The notes beneath the pieces are model-generated. The model was not told where the DNA came from. It searched no databases and worked only from the letters and a program-made list of their open reading frames with translations. A stretch of DNA of 41,173 bases from an uncultured Kiloniellales bacterium (GTDB taxonomy: Bacteria > Pseudomonadota > Alphaproteobacteria > Kiloniellales > JAKSDN01), in contig CAMYKD010000042.1 of the NCBI GenBank assembly GCA_947258885.1, forward strand, positions 1 to 41,173. The letters are read 5' to 3'. Of this stretch, positions 216 through 26,537 are shown one piece after another. How positions within the stretch are numbered: position 1 is the stretch's first letter; the number at the start of each line of letters is the position of its first letter. A program made the translations under genes and the position numbers.

Positions 216-773
216 ATGCAAACGGTGACGTTTCAGATTTCGCCCAGCGCGCGCTTCTTGGACAGACTGACGCTGTTGCAGTGGACGGTTATGGCCCTCG
301 CTGTTATAGCCGTTCTAGCTTGCGCGACGATTCTGTTCACGCAGCCGGTAAGTTGGGGCCAGCCACGTGCCGTCTTCTTCGTCCCACTCCTGGTGATCTG
401 CACAGCTCCAGTCTTCGTGCTGTCCAAGCGCTTTTCTCATCTGCCAGCACAGAACTTCATGCTGTTAGATGAAACGGGTCTCATTCTTGTCCGATTTGGA
501 CGGAAAATCAGCTGGAGTTGGCGAGATTTGCCGGCTTGCGCGGTAAGATCCCATGCGGCCCGGGGAAAGGTCATCGAGCTTCAACTACCGCCGGCCGCTA
601 AACGGCTCTCCCTTCTAGGATCATGGAAGGCGTGGCTTGCTGGCGATTGGTTCGACCGAAGCCGTCAGGTCATCCGAATGGACGACATTTTCGACGCGCC
701 TCTCGATGAAATCGCCAAGACCATGAATGCATACCGCGACCACGCCCTAGGCGATGCGGGCGCATCTACATGA
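216..773 (+). CDS. Small two-TM membrane protein, PH-like C-terminal part
   Basis: A 185-residue protein of unknown function. Two hydrophobic segments, about residues 22-43 and 50-70, form a membrane hairpin. After it comes a soluble part with alternating beta-type segments (LLDETGLILVRFG, then an SWSWRDL stretch) that resembles bacterial PH-like domains behind a membrane hairpin; that fold call is inference. The ATG at 216 follows a GGGGGAG ribosome site at a good distance, which favours it over the overlapping frame starting at 188. It is convergent with msrP, whose native stop (766-768) overlaps its last codons. It sits alone behind the RNA terminator, so it probably has its own promoter between 100 and 200. 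Confidence 0.7.
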   Translation: MQTVTFQISPSARFLDRLTLLQWTVMALAVIAVLACATILFTQPVSWGQPRAVFFVPLLVICTAPVFVLSKRFSHLPAQNFMLLDETGLILVRFGRKISWSWRDLPACAVRSHAARGKVIELQLPPAAKRLSLLGSWKAWLAGDWFDRSRQVIRMDDIFDAPLDEIAKTMNAYRDHALGDAGAST

Positions 774-1816
774 ACAGCTTTTCGCCCTCGAGGCCCTTGT
801 AGAGGTCGGCGACGAACTCGCCGTAGCCGTTGAAGAGCTGGGTCTCGAGCCGATGGTTGGCCGTTGAAGAGCTGGGTCTCGAGCCGATGGTTGGCGCCCA
901 GCACGCGCTCGGAAGCCTGGCTCCAGCGCGGGTGCGGCACGTTGGGGTTGACGTTGGCCCAGAAGCCGTACTCGGCGGCCTGGACCTCCTCCCAGAAGCT
1001 CACCGGGCGGATCTCGGTGAACTGGAAGCGCACGATGCCCTTGATCGACTTGAAGCCGTACTTCCACGGCACGGCGAGGCGCAGCGGGGCGCCGTTCTGC
1101 TTGGGCATGGGCTTGCCGTAGATGCCGGTGGCGATGAACGCCAGCTCGTTGGTCGCCTCGGCGACCGTCAGGCCCTCCTCGTAGGGCCAGGGGTACCAGG
1201 GCGCCTTCTGGCCCGAGGCCACCTCGGGGTCGTGGAAGGTGGTCATGCGGACGTACTTGGCCGAGGACAGCGGCTTGGCGAGGTCGACCAGCGCCTTCAG
1301 GGGAAAGCCGCTCCAGGGCACGGCCATGGACCAGGCCTCGACGCAGCGGTGGCGGTAGAGCCGCTCCTCCAGCGGCATCTTGGCCAGAAGCTCGTCGATG
1401 CCGATCTCGAAAGGCCGCTCGACCAGGCCGTCGATCACCACTGTCCAGGGCCTGAGCGGCAACGCTTGGGCCTTCTTCCAGATGTTTTTGGACGAGCCGA
1501 ACTCGTAGTAGTTGTTGTAGGTCGTGGCGTCGGCCTCGGGCGTCTGGTCGCGGTCGAGCCGGTAGCGCAGGTTGCGCGTTACTGGATAGAGGTGGGCCGA
1601 AGGGTCGGGCTCGGCCGCCACGGCTTGCGCCACGGCCCCGCCGGCGCGGGCGGTCGGCGCGGGCGCCTCGTCGCAGGCGCTCAGCAGCGCCGGGGCCGCC
1701 AGCAGGATCGGTCCGGCCGCCGCGGCCTTGAGCAGGCGCCGCCGGTCGTGGAAAACCGCCTCGGGCGTGGCCGCGCGCTCCGGCAATTCCCAACCGCGTT
1801 TGAGCTTGATCAGCAT
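665..1816 (-). CDS. msrP: MsrP, periplasmic methionine-sulfoxide reductase catalytic subunit, C-terminus frameshifted
   Basis: Molybdopterin enzyme of the YedY/MsrP family, which reduces methionine sulfoxide in periplasmic proteins. A Tat motif (RRRLLK, residues 25-30) and hydrophobic stretch precede the sulfite-oxidase-fold domain. The molybdenum-ligand cysteine is in RCVEAWSM (Cys158). The start at 1816 has a GGGAAG ribosome site; the longer frame from 1867 does not. A 34-bp direct duplication at 827-894 shifts the frame, so the last 19 native residues (ending EGEKLFM, stop 766-768) are replaced by a foreign tail reaching a stop at 665. With one copy removed the gene is 339 codons, the normal family size. 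It is last in the minus-strand exported-protein set. No msrQ (haem membrane partner) lies beside it. The core may still fold, as only the tail is changed. Confidence 0.9.
   Translation of the reverse strand: MLIKLKRGWELPERAATPEAVFHDRRRLLKAAAAGPILLAAPALLSACDEAPAPTARAGGAVAQAVAAEPDPSAHLYPVTRNLRYRLDRDQTPEADATTYNNYYEFGSSKNIWKKAQALPLRPWTVVIDGLVERPFEIGIDELLAKMPLEERLYRHRCVEAWSMAVPWSGFPLKALVDLAKPLSSAKYVRMTTFHDPEVASGQKAPWYPWPYEEGLTVAEATNELAFIATGIYGKPMPKQNGAPLRLAVPWKYGFKSIKGIVRFQFTEIRPVSFWEEVQAAEYGFWANVNPNVPHPRWSQASERVLGANHRLETQLFNGQPSARDPALQRLRRVRRRPLQGPRGRKAVHVDAPASPRAWSRYAFMVLAISSRGASKMSSIRMT
827..894. repeat. 34-bp perfect tandem duplication inside msrP
   Basis: Bases 827-860 and 861-894 are identical, each running from CCGTTGAAGAG to CGATGGTTGG. 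Because 34 is not a multiple of 3, the duplication shifts the msrP frame. Deleting either copy restores the conserved C-terminus and a frame of exactly 339 codons. It is either a recent slippage mutation or an assembly or consensus error. Confidence 0.97.
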
Positions 1817-1826
1817 CTGGCTTCCC

Positions 1827-2372
1827 TCACTGTTTCTCCAGATAGTCCTTGTCGGCCTCGGTGCCAAGGCCCAGCACGCCGTCGCGCCCGATCACGGCCT
1901 TGACCTGCGGGTCGTTGCGGAACCACTGCTTGGCCTCGGGGCCGCCCGCCTGGAAGCCGTTCGCCTCGGCCCACTTGGTCAGGAAGCGGTTGGCCCGCCG
2001 CCACTTGCCGTCCGGCGCCTCCTTGACGAACTGCAGCGCGAAGATCTTGGTGTCCCGGTTTGTCGTGAACAGCCCGTCGGCCACGACCCGCTTGCCGCAG
2101 AAGTCGATCAGCTCGGCCGCCGCGCCCGAGAAGGCCGTGAAGTTTTTGACCGGCAGCACGAGGACGCCGGCGTCGGTCACCAGGCCCAGTTGGCGGTTGC
2201 CGGCGCCGCAGTCCCCGGGACAGTCGCCGGTCAGCTCGCAGAGCACGTCGACCACCTTGGCCTCGAAGCGCGCCACCTCCTCCTCGGGCAAGCCCCACTC
2301 CTCGGCGGCCCAGGCCGGCGCCGCGGCCAGCAGGCCGGCGATCAGGGCTGCCGCGCTCGAGATTCTCTTCAT
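1827..2372 (-). CDS. Exported Cys-containing protein, OB-like pattern
   Basis: A 181-residue protein with a classical signal peptide (residues 1-22, cleavage after PAWA). The mature part carries a cysteine cluster in a VVDVLCELTGDCPGDCGAG-type stretch, then short beta-type segments, and a further Cys in IDFCGKRVVADG. The order of features (Val-Val-Asp before the first Cys, a Gly-Leu turn, then a G-x-x-V-x-x-D-G-L-F strand) parallels the gene just upstream, so the two may be distant paralogues with an OB-like fold. No function is recognised; metal, haem or disulfide chemistry are possibilities only. It starts 4 nt after the upstream stop and its own stop is 10 nt before msrP, so co-transcription is nearly certain. 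Confidence 0.8.
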   Translation of the reverse strand: MKRISSAAALIAGLLAAAPAWAAEEWGLPEEEVARFEAKVVDVLCELTGDCPGDCGAGNRQLGLVTDAGVLVLPVKNFTAFSGAAAELIDFCGKRVVADGLFTTNRDTKIFALQFVKEAPDGKWRRANRFLTKWAEANGFQAGGPEAKQWFRNDPQVKAVIGRDGVLGLGTEADKDYLEKQ

Positions 2373-2376
2373 CGTC

Positions 2377-2811
2377 TCACTTCCCGAAGGGCTGAACGCC
2401 CCATTCCTCGTGGTTGACCTTGACGATACCCTCGTCGGCGAGCACCCGGTCGACTATCAGATAGTTGATGCCGTCGCGCTTGTAGAGCGCGCCGTCCACC
2501 TTGACCCGGTGGGTCTGGATCTCGAGCACGGCCGGGTTGGCGACGCTGGTCGCGTCGTCCCCCATCTTGAGCACCATGTAGACCGTGCCGTCGTCGCCGA
2601 GGATGCCGACCGGAATGCCGCCCGCCGCGCACCACACGGCGCACTGGTGATGGGCCGAGCCCTCGGGAAACATGATCTCGGTGATATAGCACCAGCTGTC
2701 GATGACCTCGCCGGTCACCTTGACCCGCTCGCCCGCCGCCAAGGCGGGCTCCGCTGTCACGGCGGTCAGGGCCAGGCCGGTGGCGGCAATCCAAGCAGGA
2801 ATTCTGGACAT
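2377..2811 (-). CDS. Exported OB-like protein with Cys/His cluster
   Basis: A 144-residue protein with a signal peptide (residues 1-25, ending ALAAG). The mature domain opens with VTGEVIDSWCY and continues to an HHQCAVWC cluster and a GGIPVGIL turn, then strands and a final DGALYKRDGINYL stretch. One Cys in the first strand plus two Cys and two His in the next segment suggest a metal or redox centre, but I cannot name the ligand. The pattern matches the downstream gene. The start at 2811 has a GGAGG site 4 nt upstream; the longer frame from 3099 lacks a signal peptide and overlaps the spondin gene. It lies between the spondin gene (67-nt gap) and its relative (4-nt gap). Confidence 0.8.
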   Translation of the reverse strand: MSRIPAWIAATGLALTAVTAEPALAAGERVKVTGEVIDSWCYITEIMFPEGSAHHQCAVWCAAGGIPVGILGDDGTVYMVLKMGDDATSVANPAVLEIQTHRVKVDGALYKRDGINYLIVDRVLADEGIVKVNHEEWGVQPFGK

Positions 2812-2878
2812 GTGGCCTCCATCCGGAATGAGGCGCGGCGCGGCGGATCGCGCGAGAGCGATCCGCCGCGCCGGACCG

Positions 2879-3550
2879 TCAATCTTTGGGCGCGCGGCGG
2901 ATAATGACCCGCGCGACGGGATTGCGCCAGTCCCGTTGGGCGTCGTCGAGATCGCCGATGCCGTGGATGCCGGCGTGCACGTGGACGTGGCCCTCGCCCT
3001 CCGGCGACCCGGACCCGCCGGGGCAGACGAACGGCGGTCCTGGGATCGAATCGCAAGATTCGTCGTTGGCCTCCGTGCCGGCGTCATAGGCGAGCGCAAG
3101 GAAGGCTCCGGACCTCTTGCCCTTGGGGGCGCGGACGCCGTTCAGGGCGACGAAGGCGTCGTTGGTGGGCACCAGCATGGCGGCCAGGCTGACCCGCGTG
3201 AAGTCGTCGTCGGCTTCGACTTGCAGGCTCACCGACTGGCCGGGCGGCAGTACGCCGTCGCCCGTGGCGACATCGCCTACGTAGGGATTGCCGGCGAGCG
3301 CGGCCACGAAGGGCGCGGTGTCGCCCCCCTCGGCCAGGCTCTCCAACTCGTCGCTCGCGGCCTCGCCCGGAGTGAAGAGTTGGACCCCGGGCTTATGCGA
3401 CACCACTAGGAAGGGCGTAAAGAACTGGCCCCGCGTGAGGTTCGTGATGGTGACCTCGTAGGTGGCGTCGTCGTCGGCCAGCGCGGCTCCGGCGGTGACC
3501 AGGGTGCCGGCGGCCGCAAGCAACGCCAGGGCCCTGTTGATAGGATTCAT
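2879..3550 (-). CDS. Spondin_N domain exported protein
   Basis: A 223-residue secreted protein. The signal peptide (residues 1-25, ending GAALA) is followed by a spondin_N domain, recognisable from YEVTITNLTRGQFFTPFLVVSHK, a long acidic middle part, and VSLAAMLVPTNDAFVALNGV. The C-terminal part has a two-Cys loop (SCDSIPGPPFVCPGG) and a His-rich stretch (GHVHVHAGIHG). In animals the N-spondin domain is an extracellular adhesion module; bacterial members are exported and of unknown role. I chose the ATG at 3550 because GAGGAA lies 9 nt upstream, while the ATG at 3559 overlaps that site. It is second in the exported-protein set, 51 nt after the CNPC-repeat gene. Confidence 0.85.
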   Translation of the reverse strand: MNPINRALALLAAAGTLVTAGAALADDDATYEVTITNLTRGQFFTPFLVVSHKPGVQLFTPGEAASDELESLAEGGDTAPFVAALAGNPYVGDVATGDGVLPPGQSVSLQVEADDDFTRVSLAAMLVPTNDAFVALNGVRAPKGKRSGAFLALAYDAGTEANDESCDSIPGPPFVCPGGSGSPEGEGHVHVHAGIHGIGDLDDAQRDWRNPVARVIIRRAPKD

Positions 3551-3601
3551 CGTTTCCATTCCTCTCGTCAAACAGTCGACTCTCGATGGCAGAATCGGGC
3601 C

Positions 3602-3916
3602 CTAGTTGGCCGCGCAGGGATTGCAGGGGTTTTTCGCGGCGCAGGGGTTGCACGGAGTCTTGGCCGCGCAGGGGTTGCAGGGGCTGGCCGCGGCCGCGCA
3701 GGGGTTGCACGGGTTCTTGGCGGCGCAGGGGTTGCAGGGATTGCACGGGGTCTTGGCCGCGCAGGGATTGCAGGGGCTACAGCCCGCCGCGACCTGAACG
3801 GGGGTCGCCGCGGCATGGGCCACGGCGGCCGGCAGGGCCGCGGCGCTGCTCAGGAGGACCGCGGCGCTCAGGGCCACGGCGGTCTCTTTCAGCCTGGGGG
3901 GGATGGTCTTGGTCAT
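3602..3916 (-). CDS. Exported Cys-Pro-Asn repeat protein (14 Cys)
   Basis: A 104-residue protein with a signal peptide (residues 1-36, ending AVAHA) and a mature region made almost wholly of CNPCAAK/CNPCAAN-type repeats: 14 cysteines, each in an x-P-C or C-x-P-C setting, separated by AAK or AAA. It has no other domain. Such a regular CxPC ladder could bind soft metals or form a disulfide-rich wall or matrix protein; neither is shown. The ATG at 3916 has GGGAGA at about 9 nt. It is first in the set of five exported proteins and lies about 95 nt downstream of the CTTTA-type site array. The repeat may vary in copy number by slippage. Confidence 0.85.
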
Positions 3917-4114: not shown

Positions 4115-4201
4115 GGAGAAATAGGGTCAGACCCCAATTTCTCCAATTTCTGAATTTTCGGATTTCTGCTGGAAACGGAGAAATAGGGTCTGACCCTATT
4201 T
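4115..4201. repeat. Paired palindromic element with GGGTC-n-GACCC core
   Basis: Two related palindromes start 62 bp apart, each with GGAGAAATAGGGTC followed by n and GACCC. In the first (4115-4144), GGAGAAAT pairs with ATTTCTCC and GGGTC with GACCC. In the second (4177-4201), AAATAGGGTC pairs with GACCCTATTT. This resembles dispersed REP/MITE-like palindromes common in proteobacterial intergenic DNA; that identification rests on recall. It fills the gap between the kinase stop (4222) and the site array. The second hairpin ends in only four T and is not an ideal terminator for either strand. Confidence 0.6.
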
Positions 4202-4221: not shown

Positions 4222-5286
4222 TCAAGCCGGCAGGGTGAACCAGATCCGGACCCGGCCTTCGGCGCTCTCGGCGCCGACCCGGCCGCCGTGGGCTTCGACC
4301 AGCTCCTTGACGATCGCGAGCCCGATCCCGGCGCCGCCGCTGTCGCGCGAGCGCGACTTCTCGGCCCGGTGGAAGCGTTCGAAGATGAGCTTCAGGTCGG
4401 TCTCCGCGATCTCGGGCCCGGAATTGGCGAAGGTCGCCTTGATCCCCTCGGCCACGCGCTCGGTCGAGATCGAGAGGGCGCCTTTGCCGGGGGTGTATTG
4501 GCAGGCGTTCTGGATCAGGTTGCGCAGCACCTGCAGCAGCTTGTCCCGGTCGCCCGTCACCCGGCCAGCCGCCTCGGCGTAGTGCGTCTCCAGCGAGATG
4601 CCGCGCGATTCGAACTGATAGCGGTAGAGCTCGAGGACCTGTTCGATCAGGTCGGGCAGGGCGATCTCCTCGCGCTGCAGATAGGCCCGGGCGGCGTCGG
4701 CCTTGGTCAGCTGGTTGATGTCCTCGGCCAGCCGGACGAGCCGCAGGATCTCCTCCTGGAGCATCTCGAAGGTCTCCTTCGACGGCGGCACCACGCCGTC
4801 GGCCAGGGCCTCGAGGTAGCCGCGGATGTTGGTCAGCGGCGTGCGCAGCTCGTGCGCCATGTCGACCACCATGGAGCGGCGCAGCCGCTCGACCCGCTCC
4901 AGGCCGTCGGCCATCTGGTTGAACGCGCGCGCCAAGTGGCCGACCTCGTCGCGCGAGGCGGCCTCGACACGGTCGGTATAGTCGCCCGCGGCGATCCGCC
5001 TCGATATCGCCGCCATGTCGGAAAGCGGCCGCAGGACCTTGCGGGTCAGCAGAAGGCTCAGCAGGACGGCGAGCGCCAGGGCCGCCACGCTGACCTGGAT
5101 CAGATAGCGGTGTATGGCGTCCAGGAACATCTGGTGGCTTTCGGCCGGGTCGATGTTGTACTGCTTCATGAGGACGGAGAAATAGTCGGCCGCCAGGAAG
5201 TCGACGGCCAGCCAGACCACCAGAAAGACCACGCCGATCATGGCCGCGTTGATCGCCAGGAGCTTCCACAGCAGGCGGCTTTTCAT
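4222..5286 (-). CDS. Sensor histidine kinase, HAMP-HisKA-HATPase
   Basis: A 354-residue membrane sensor kinase. TM1 is about residues 8-30, a short periplasmic loop of roughly 30 residues follows, and TM2 is about 63-82. Then come HAMP (to about 135), HisKA with phospho-acceptor His145 in DMAHELRTPL, and the HATPase domain with N-box NLIQN (Asn260) and the glycine-rich DSGGAGIGLAI. All catalytic motifs are intact. The organisation is BaeS-like. The small periplasmic loop suggests that it senses through the membrane or via a partner. It follows its response regulator by 19 nt. Its neighbours downstream are exported redox and Cys proteins including MsrP; in E. coli the HprSR (YedVW) pair controls msrPQ, which is a suggestive parallel. 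Confidence 0.92.
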   Translation of the reverse strand: MKSRLLWKLLAINAAMIGVVFLVVWLAVDFLAADYFSVLMKQYNIDPAESHQMFLDAIHRYLIQVSVAALALAVLLSLLLTRKVLRPLSDMAAISRRIAAGDYTDRVEAASRDEVGHLARAFNQMADGLERVERLRRSMVVDMAHELRTPLTNIRGYLEALADGVVPPSKETFEMLQEEILRLVRLAEDINQLTKADAARAYLQREEIALPDLIEQVLELYRYQFESRGISLETHYAEAAGRVTGDRDKLLQVLRNLIQNACQYTPGKGALSISTERVAEGIKATFANSGPEIAETDLKLIFERFHRAEKSRSRDSGGAGIGLAIVKELVEAHGGRVGAESAEGRVRIWFTLPA

Positions 5287-5305: not shown

Positions 5306-6016
5306 TCACGTATCGTCCCGCTCGGCGAAGCGGTAGCCGACGCCGCGCACCGTCAGGATGTAGCGCGGCTCGGAGGGGTCGGCCTCGATCTTCTGCCGGA
5401 GCTTGCCGATGTGGACGTCGATCACCCGGTCGACCACGGCCTCGCCGTGCCGATGGAGATGGCCCAGCAGGACGTCGCGCGAGAAGACCCGCCCCGGCGC
5501 GCTCATCAGGGTATAGAGAAGCGTGTACTCCGACGGGGTCAAGGGGATCGAGCGGCCGTCCAGGGTTACTTTGTGCTTGTCCGGCTCGAGGACCAGCTGC
5601 CCGTGCCGCAGGCGCGCGTCGGCGTCCGGCCCTGCGGGCCGCGACCGGCGCAGGATGGCCTTGACCCTTTCGACCAGCTCGCGCGGGCTGAACGGCTTGA
5701 CCACGTAGTCGTCGGCCCCCAGGGAGAAGCCCAGGATCCGGTCCAGCTCCTCCTCGCGGGCGGTCAGGATCAGGATCGGAACGTCGGACTGCTTGCGGAT
5801 CTCGCGGCACAGGTCCCAGCCGTCGACGCCGGGCAGCATGAGGTCCAGGACGACGAAGCCGGGCTTGTGCCGGCGGAGGAGCTCGAGGCCCGCGGGCCCG
5901 TCGTGGGCGACGATCGGCTCGAAGCCGGCCTTCGCGAGGTAGGTCTCGACCAGCGCGGCGATGTTCCGATCGTCCTCGACGACGAGGATCGGGTTCGCTG
6001 AGCGGGGATCTTGCAT
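5306..6016 (-). CDS. OmpR-family response regulator
   Basis: A 236-residue regulator. The receiver domain (about 8-120) has the acidic pair Glu14-Asp15, phospho-acceptor Asp58 in VVLDLMLPG, Thr85 and Lys107 in VVKPFS. The C-terminal winged helix (about 135-230) contains LTPSEYTLLYTLMSAPGRVFSR and the VRGVGYRF wing. I took the ATG at 6016 because the receiver begins directly after it; the 22 residues upstream in the open frame look non-coding. No clear ribosome site is visible. It pairs with the kinase at 4222-5286. The phased CTTTA sites at 4011-4054 have the form expected for this family, and none are visible upstream of its own start, so autoregulation is not indicated. Confidence 0.92.
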   Translation of the reverse strand: MQDPRSANPILVVEDDRNIAALVETYLAKAGFEPIVAHDGPAGLELLRRHKPGFVVLDLMLPGVDGWDLCREIRKQSDVPILILTAREEELDRILGFSLGADDYVVKPFSPRELVERVKAILRRSRPAGPDADARLRHGQLVLEPDKHKVTLDGRSIPLTPSEYTLLYTLMSAPGRVFSRDVLLGHLHRHGEAVVDRVIDVHIGKLRQKIEADPSEPRYILTVRGVGYRFAERDDT

Positions 6017-24326: not shown

Positions 24327-26323
<1,997 letters not shown>

Positions 26324-26327
26324 TTCG

Positions 26328-26537
26328 TTGAGCCGGGGCGGTGAAGGACAAGTCGAGGCTGCGATACAAGACCTGATCGGCCGTGGTCGCTTGCGCGGCT
26401 TCGTGACCTACGACGAAATCACCCAGACGATACCGCCCGAGCATGTTTCGTCCGACGAGATCGAGGATCTGATGGTACGCCTTGCCGGATTGAACATTGC
26501 CGTAGTTGACAGCGACGAAGCCGGGGACAACCCTTAG
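26328..26537 (+). CDS. Stand-alone sigma-70 region 1.1-like small protein
   Basis: A 69-residue ORF that is almost entirely a copy of sigma-70 region 1.1. Its [20 protein letters not shown] aligns without gaps to [20 protein letters not shown] of the adjacent rpoD, and IEDLM/VV matches continue to the end. Region 1.1 is the acidic DNA-mimic domain that keeps free sigma-70 from binding DNA. A separate copy could act in trans on sigma or polymerase, or may be a relic. The only in-frame start is TTG at 26328, with no clear ribosome site, 4 nt after the rpoD stop, so expression would rely on translational coupling. The frame is intact and similarity is at protein level with many silent or conservative changes, which argues for some period of selection. 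Confidence 0.6.

Follow-up and report, generated by a model that had tools for sequence, protein, structure and literature searches.

We identified a gene for a small cysteine-ladder protein in a contig of an uncultured Kiloniellales bacterium; the whole stretch of 41,173 nucleotides that was analysed is called the window here. By analogy with known copper-handling systems, the protein may be an exported, probably unstructured polythiol that buffers a soft metal and/or oxidant in the periplasm, most likely Cu(I)-type ions, within an envelope-stress unit that also encodes the periplasmic methionine sulfoxide reductase MsrP. We give this reading a probability of about 45%. If correct, the biology of envelope stress in bacteria would gain a family of exported polythiols that is widespread yet unnamed, and repair by MsrP would be linked to a thiol buffer in bacteria where no MsrQ-type gene was found.

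The open reading frame occupies positions 3602..3916 of the minus strand and encodes 104 amino acids plus a stop codon, while the plus-strand reading of the same positions is unrelated to the ladder. The original prediction of a secreted-looking CxPC ladder with 14 cysteines was confirmed on this strand. Approximately residues 1–35 (3812..3916) resemble a signal peptide by eye, with a K/R n-region followed by a hydrophobic core and ending in AHA-A, and the protein is putatively exported. A K-T-x-VALSVATL-like segment within this N-terminus is common to the ladder relatives. A short linker leads to the ladder itself (residues 46–104, 3605..3781), whose 59 residues consist of CSPC or CNPC units separated by AAK, AAAA or AAN spacers and hold all 14 cysteines and eight CxPC motifs. 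None of 20,000 residue shuffles of this segment reached eight CxPC (shuffle mean 0.69). The protein is probably unstructured.

Comparison with two same-genus orthologues of approximately the same length confirms that the ladder is a real gene under coding selection. Codon changes between the window copy and these orthologues number 15 synonymous to 7 non-synonymous and 8 to 3, and the two orthologues differ from each other by 15 to 7. All insertions and deletions relative to them are in-frame, the number of units varies, and synonymous codons differ from unit to unit within the window ladder. The original prediction would have been undermined by a failure to find orthologues beyond the strain. 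They occur in two genomes of the same genus and one of another genus in the same family, and with the window protein as query relatives at E<=1e-5 were found in 37 of the 61 genomes of the order and in 29 of the 289 genomes of a class sample.

The ladder lies in a row of minus-strand genes. In the direction of transcription these encode an OmpR-type response regulator (5306..6016) and a HAMP-HisKA-HATPase sensor kinase (4222..5286), the ladder, a secreted-looking spondin-domain protein (2879..3556; NF038123, 161.9 bits against a cut-off of 40), two secreted-looking proteins without a family match, the small X2377 (2377..2811) and X1827 (1827..2372), and the MsrP catalytic subunit (665..1819; PRK05363, 392.4 bits against a cut-off of 207). 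The ladder thus leads the set that ends in MsrP, as originally proposed. Both same-genus genomes (G031 and G032) keep the gene order of the window; the spondin-domain protein is present in G032, and no match to it was found in G031. In the genome of another genus (G034), the kinase, ladder and MsrP genes lie immediately side by side, and the ladder orthologue adjoining MsrP is 65% identical over 85 amino acids. Homologues of X2377 and X1827 recur at L088 and L102, both of them distant loci, where they adjoin a protein that reads as SCO1/SenC and lie near an FGE-like gene, ladders and a DUF6969 gene.

We propose that the sensor kinase, regulator, ladder, accessory secreted proteins and MsrP would form one envelope-stress unit. 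The kinase would sense stress, upon which the ladder would be exported; its CxPC units would bind a thiophilic metal or absorb oxidising equivalents, and MsrP would meanwhile repair oxidised methionines. Export, binding of metal or oxidant and regulation by the adjacent kinase are what we infer here. Several lines of evidence point this way: the dense CxxC motifs with a fixed proline (in 76 short ladders, 587 of 610 CxxC are CxPC and 555 are CNPC), the kinase-ladder-MsrP order kept in another genus together with an MsrP match above its curated cut-off, and the recurrence of X2377 and X1827 relatives beside the SCO-like protein. The soft-metal binding suggested in the original prediction is plausible, and the gene context supports it in part, through MsrP in the window, the SCO-like protein at two loci and an FGE-like enzyme at others.

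Two known systems supply the analogies. In Escherichia coli, copper is reported to induce MsrPQ by way of CusSR, and MsrPQ to protect CusF, a copper chaperone (PMC9302797). The window resembles that arrangement in having a two-component system along with MsrP and a small protein that is a periplasmic candidate for metal handling. However, this small protein is a cysteine ladder and not a Met-rich chaperone, no efflux pump lies within the window unit, and MsrP was found without its haem membrane partner MsrQ, for which the own draft genome (97% complete) has no PF01794 match. Bufferins, in turn, are described in PMC12452194 as Sec-exported, cysteine-rich proteins that bind excess copper. Bufferins and oxazolins share with the ladder an N-terminus like a signal peptide (by eye for the ladder), a repeated cysteine motif and variable length, as well as haem and FGE company in some members; the reported Buf1-cytochrome c-FGE fusions parallel the ladder, haem and FGE-like company described below. 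Bufferins are, however, ribosomally synthesized peptides (RiPPs) modified by MNIO enzymes, whereas ladders are accompanied by DUF6969 and an FGE-like enzyme. The ladder has no match to a bufferin family model in Pfam or NCBIfam, the new profiles of that paper lying outside this comparison.

Two observations argue against this reading. No general enrichment of copper genes was found around ladders, SCO1-SenC giving two matches among the 105 ladder-neighbour proteins scanned, and the idea of such enrichment was rejected. The kinase next to the ladder cannot be placed in a metal-sensor subfamily, its scores lying below the cut-offs. One further neighbour that looked cupredoxin-like by eye was set aside, having no Pfam match.

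The ladders constitute a large family without a Pfam or NCBIfam model, comprising both short ladders and arms on c-type haem proteins. Searches of Pfam, NCBIfam, PADLOC and the PDB returned no family or relative for the window ladder other than a sub-threshold amelogenin match. No paper containing the ladder unit strings was found in the literature searched, most subscription journals being outside it. The haem-regulatory CP motif was dropped as an explanation, since the ladder unit is PC and not CP. The own genome has two further ladder proteins, one of 103 amino acids (C62) and one of 381 (C56), in the latter of which a P460-like haem domain carries a pair of ladders.

The DNA pattern for CNPCNPCAA occurs in at least 120 stretches, which among the matches listed are mostly from Alphaproteobacteria; ladder ORFs among them are also labelled Granulosicoccaceae, Hahella, Halospina, Entotheonella, Poribacteria, SAR324 and Armatimonadetes, although many of these records are metagenome bins and some taxon labels may be wrong. 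Named isolates that carry ladders include Sneathiella chungangensis, Aestuariispira insulae and Denitrobaculum tricleocarpae. Of 132 distinct closed ladder ORFs with at least four CxPC, 76 are shorter than 200 amino acids and 56 are longer; close duplicates remain in this set, and some of its ORFs begin too early. A P460-like W[RK]Y motif is present in 41 of the long ORFs and a SoxA-like C[ML][VI]xPM motif in five, and ladder-fused haem domains match PF16694 (P460) and PF21342 (SoxA-TsdA) above cut-off. These domains resemble those of the P460 and SoxA/TsdA cytochromes but carry cysteine ladders, while the window protein lacks a haem domain. With regard to the disulfide-linked matrix also suggested in the original prediction, cysteines are odd in number in 31 of the 76 short ladders, which argues mildly against full intramolecular disulfide pairing.

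To describe the neighbourhoods of other ladders, we clustered ORFs from 142 loci, 137 of which have a ladder ORF by the filter used. Three settings recur, and the window represents a fourth, with MsrP. Beside rnpA/yidC there is a conserved operon (L164, L167, L168 and similar loci) of a VTT-domain protein (30 loci), a flavin disulfide reductase (24), a short ladder and a kinase (38); these counts are inflated by several loci that were taken twice from the same contig, and the kinase cluster includes the kinase of the window. The second setting combines the sulfur transporter PF04143 (14 of 142 loci), a secreted protein without assignment (17), a secreted FGE-like protein (34), a short ladder, either a ladder-P460 protein (P460 cluster of 53 over all settings) or a ladder-SoxA-like-ladder protein (7), and DUF6969 (44). 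The third comprises SUF genes, cytochrome c, a P460-like protein, ladder-P460 and Sel1. All loci with DUF6969 or the FGE-like protein derive from the 120 pattern matches listed, and hence represent 44 and 34 of these.

The recurrence of these two genes suggests another reading, in which the ladders would form a new class of RiPP-like peptides independent of MNIO, DUF6969 and/or the secreted FGE-like enzyme modifying ladder cysteines as MNIO does in bufferins. We regard this as possible but doubtful, and are as hesitant about its consequence, that the modified cysteines in their C-x-P context would give a polymer able to handle metal or sulfur, one that c-type haem proteins would also bear as arms. 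Were the cysteines modified, there would be a second route beside the MNIO enzymes to Sec-exported modified metallopeptides; a testable role would also be gained for DUF6969 and a divergent FGE subfamily. The original suggestion of a modified peptide gains support from candidate enzymes found beside ladders elsewhere. MNIO modification is unlikely here and was rejected for the own genome, as neither this genome nor any of the seven of its family has a PF05114 match. Across the order, ladders and MNIO show no clear co-occurrence (19 of 37 genomes with ladders against 7 of 24 without, p 0.11).

In the class sample, DUF6969 is present in 28 of the 29 ladder genomes (the exception is G183) and in 34 of the 260 others (Fisher p 1e-20), and the FGE-like protein (E<=1e-60) in 15 of the 29 against five of the 260 (Fisher p 2e-13). 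These p values are not corrected for kinship, and in one part of the search only some of the initial candidates were scored. In 18 of the 29, a DUF6969 gene and a ladder are no more than 6 kb apart. Among the 61 genomes of the order, 35 have both a ladder and DUF6969, two a ladder alone, 11 DUF6969 alone and 13 neither; for the FGE-like protein (>380 bits) the corresponding numbers are 31, 6, 3 and 21. The own genome has both enzymes side by side on contig C23, which speaks for the RiPP-like reading; however, the pair lies away from all three ladder loci of this genome.

The dependence is not strict, and we rejected a strict link between DUF6969 and ladders, as both DUF6969 and the FGE-like pair are seen in ladder-free genomes too. 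By the P0002 search, DUF6969 comes without a ladder in 11 genomes at the order level and in 34 from the class sample, and the FGE-like/DUF6969 pair is present without ladders in G026–G028. We examined 36 DUF6969 loci, 31 from ladder-negative genomes and five from ladder-positive ones (L209–L212 and L214), for adjoining cysteine-rich exported ORFs. A strict filter, which missed DUF6969 itself in five of the 36, found such a neighbour in three (L221, L231 and L239). A looser filter with inspection by eye pointed to such a neighbour at six of the 20 class loci (L221, L222, L231, L232, L237 and L239), and none was found at the remaining loci, including all 16 at the order level. Most examined ladder-free DUF6969 loci therefore have no cysteine-rich neighbour. 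At such loci, the order-level ones among them, the recurrent neighbours are instead a TAXI-TRAP transporter and universal-stress genes, sometimes with a rhodanese (L198–L211), and DUF6969 probably has another role too. Ladders, in short, are nearly always accompanied by DUF6969, which has contexts beyond ladders; because both enzymes occur without ladders, cysteine modification is something we infer from the association.

In some genomes without a CNPC ladder, a different cysteine-rich exported protein lies near DUF6969. One has GCGG-type repeats (L221, 5687–6073) and lies 67 bp from DUF6969; another has GCCAAEGC-type repeats (L232, 5679–5975) at a distance of 71 bp. These are possible ladder equivalents, and they favour the RiPP-like reading. 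With the L237 ladder as query, matches were found in 4 of 45 DUF6969-positive genomes, one of them the query's own, and in none of 35 DUF6969-negative genomes; in G274, 27 bp separate the matches to this ladder and to DUF6969.

On inspection, DUF6969 (PF22308) shows nothing like a signal peptide at its N-terminus and looks cytosolic. In an alignment of 22 of the 44 proteins HxH, E, GH and FH are invariant, with HxH and GHFH motifs. Its structure model (pLDDT 91.9) has no PDB structure match, the best E being 0.72, and a sequence match at E 0.14 was treated as chance. No paper on DUF6969 was found in the same literature, again with most subscription journals outside it.

The FGE-like neighbours match the FGE-sulfatase domain PF03781 above cut-off (118.9 bits), and their model matches structures of FGE such as 2q17 and 6muj. 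They resemble FGE (SUMF1) in these respects but differ in a hydrophobic N-terminal segment, in ToxD being the best PDB sequence match, and at the active site. Human FGE has the active-site cysteine pair Cys336/Cys341. The FGE-like neighbours do not have this pair: all 26 aligned proteins, from a cluster of 34, carry a GGSWDDxGCGxCR motif in which GCGxC replaces the spaced cysteines. Compared with a CxxxxC member of the cluster (L151), these proteins retain the second cysteine, while Asp takes the place of the first; model confidence is lower in this region. L151 and L144 belong to the 34-member cluster yet fall outside the FGE-like subfamily. In L151, an Armatimonadetes record, a CNPC ladder lies within a membrane protein (1705–2358) directly before the FGE-like gene with the CxxxxC motif (2360–3304). 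The N-termini of 19 ladders have a mean identity of 28.7% and those of 12 FGE-like proteins 10.4%, a comparison of little weight because it is ungapped and differently anchored. FGE recognises the motif CXPXR, according to PMC4505483, and within the RiPP-like reading the FGE-like enzyme would use its C-x-P core. However, the ladders keep C-x-P and have no Arg at +4.

The haem and sulfur company of other ladders is the basis for a further alternative, which we consider improbable: that the ladder is a multivalent carrier of sulfur or persulfide, whose thiols would take up sulfur from species that have been transported or oxidised, the oxidation being carried out by SoxA/TsdA-like or P460-like haem domains where these are fused to the ladder. 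The PF21342 match of the ladder-flanked haem domain and the presence of PF04143 and of the flavin disulfide reductase, in the numbers of loci given above, are consistent with it. However, the SoxA equivalog model scores 28 bits against a cut-off of 110, and P460-like fusions are far commoner, with 53 loci against seven, the former counted over all settings and including P460-like proteins without a ladder. The window unit has no such genes, its partner being MsrP. The company that ladders keep elsewhere also fits a redox or sulfur role, which counts against the buffer reading. Finally, a functionless slipped-strand DNA repeat would explain the tandem repetition, which is also seen in the DNA itself, and the varying unit number between orthologues, but is scarcely credible given the synonymous excess, in-frame indels, codon variation between units and conserved gene order.

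Several features of the window were observed in addition. Towards its 3' end, msrP contains a tandem duplication of 34 bp (830–897) that leaves the last codons out of frame with respect to relatives, and that may be either a real change or an assembly error. The primary sigma-factor gene (24327–26330) is interrupted, the first ORF ending inside region 2 and the rest continuing in another frame, which is likely an assembly error. Because of these two cases, the exact number of ladder repeats in this draft genome may be uncertain, although the two orthologues in the genus differ little from it in length. Between the kinase and ladder genes (4119–4201) there are three copies of AAATAGGGTCAGACCC, two exact and one with a mismatch, against 0.01 expected by chance; two of the copies form a palindrome.
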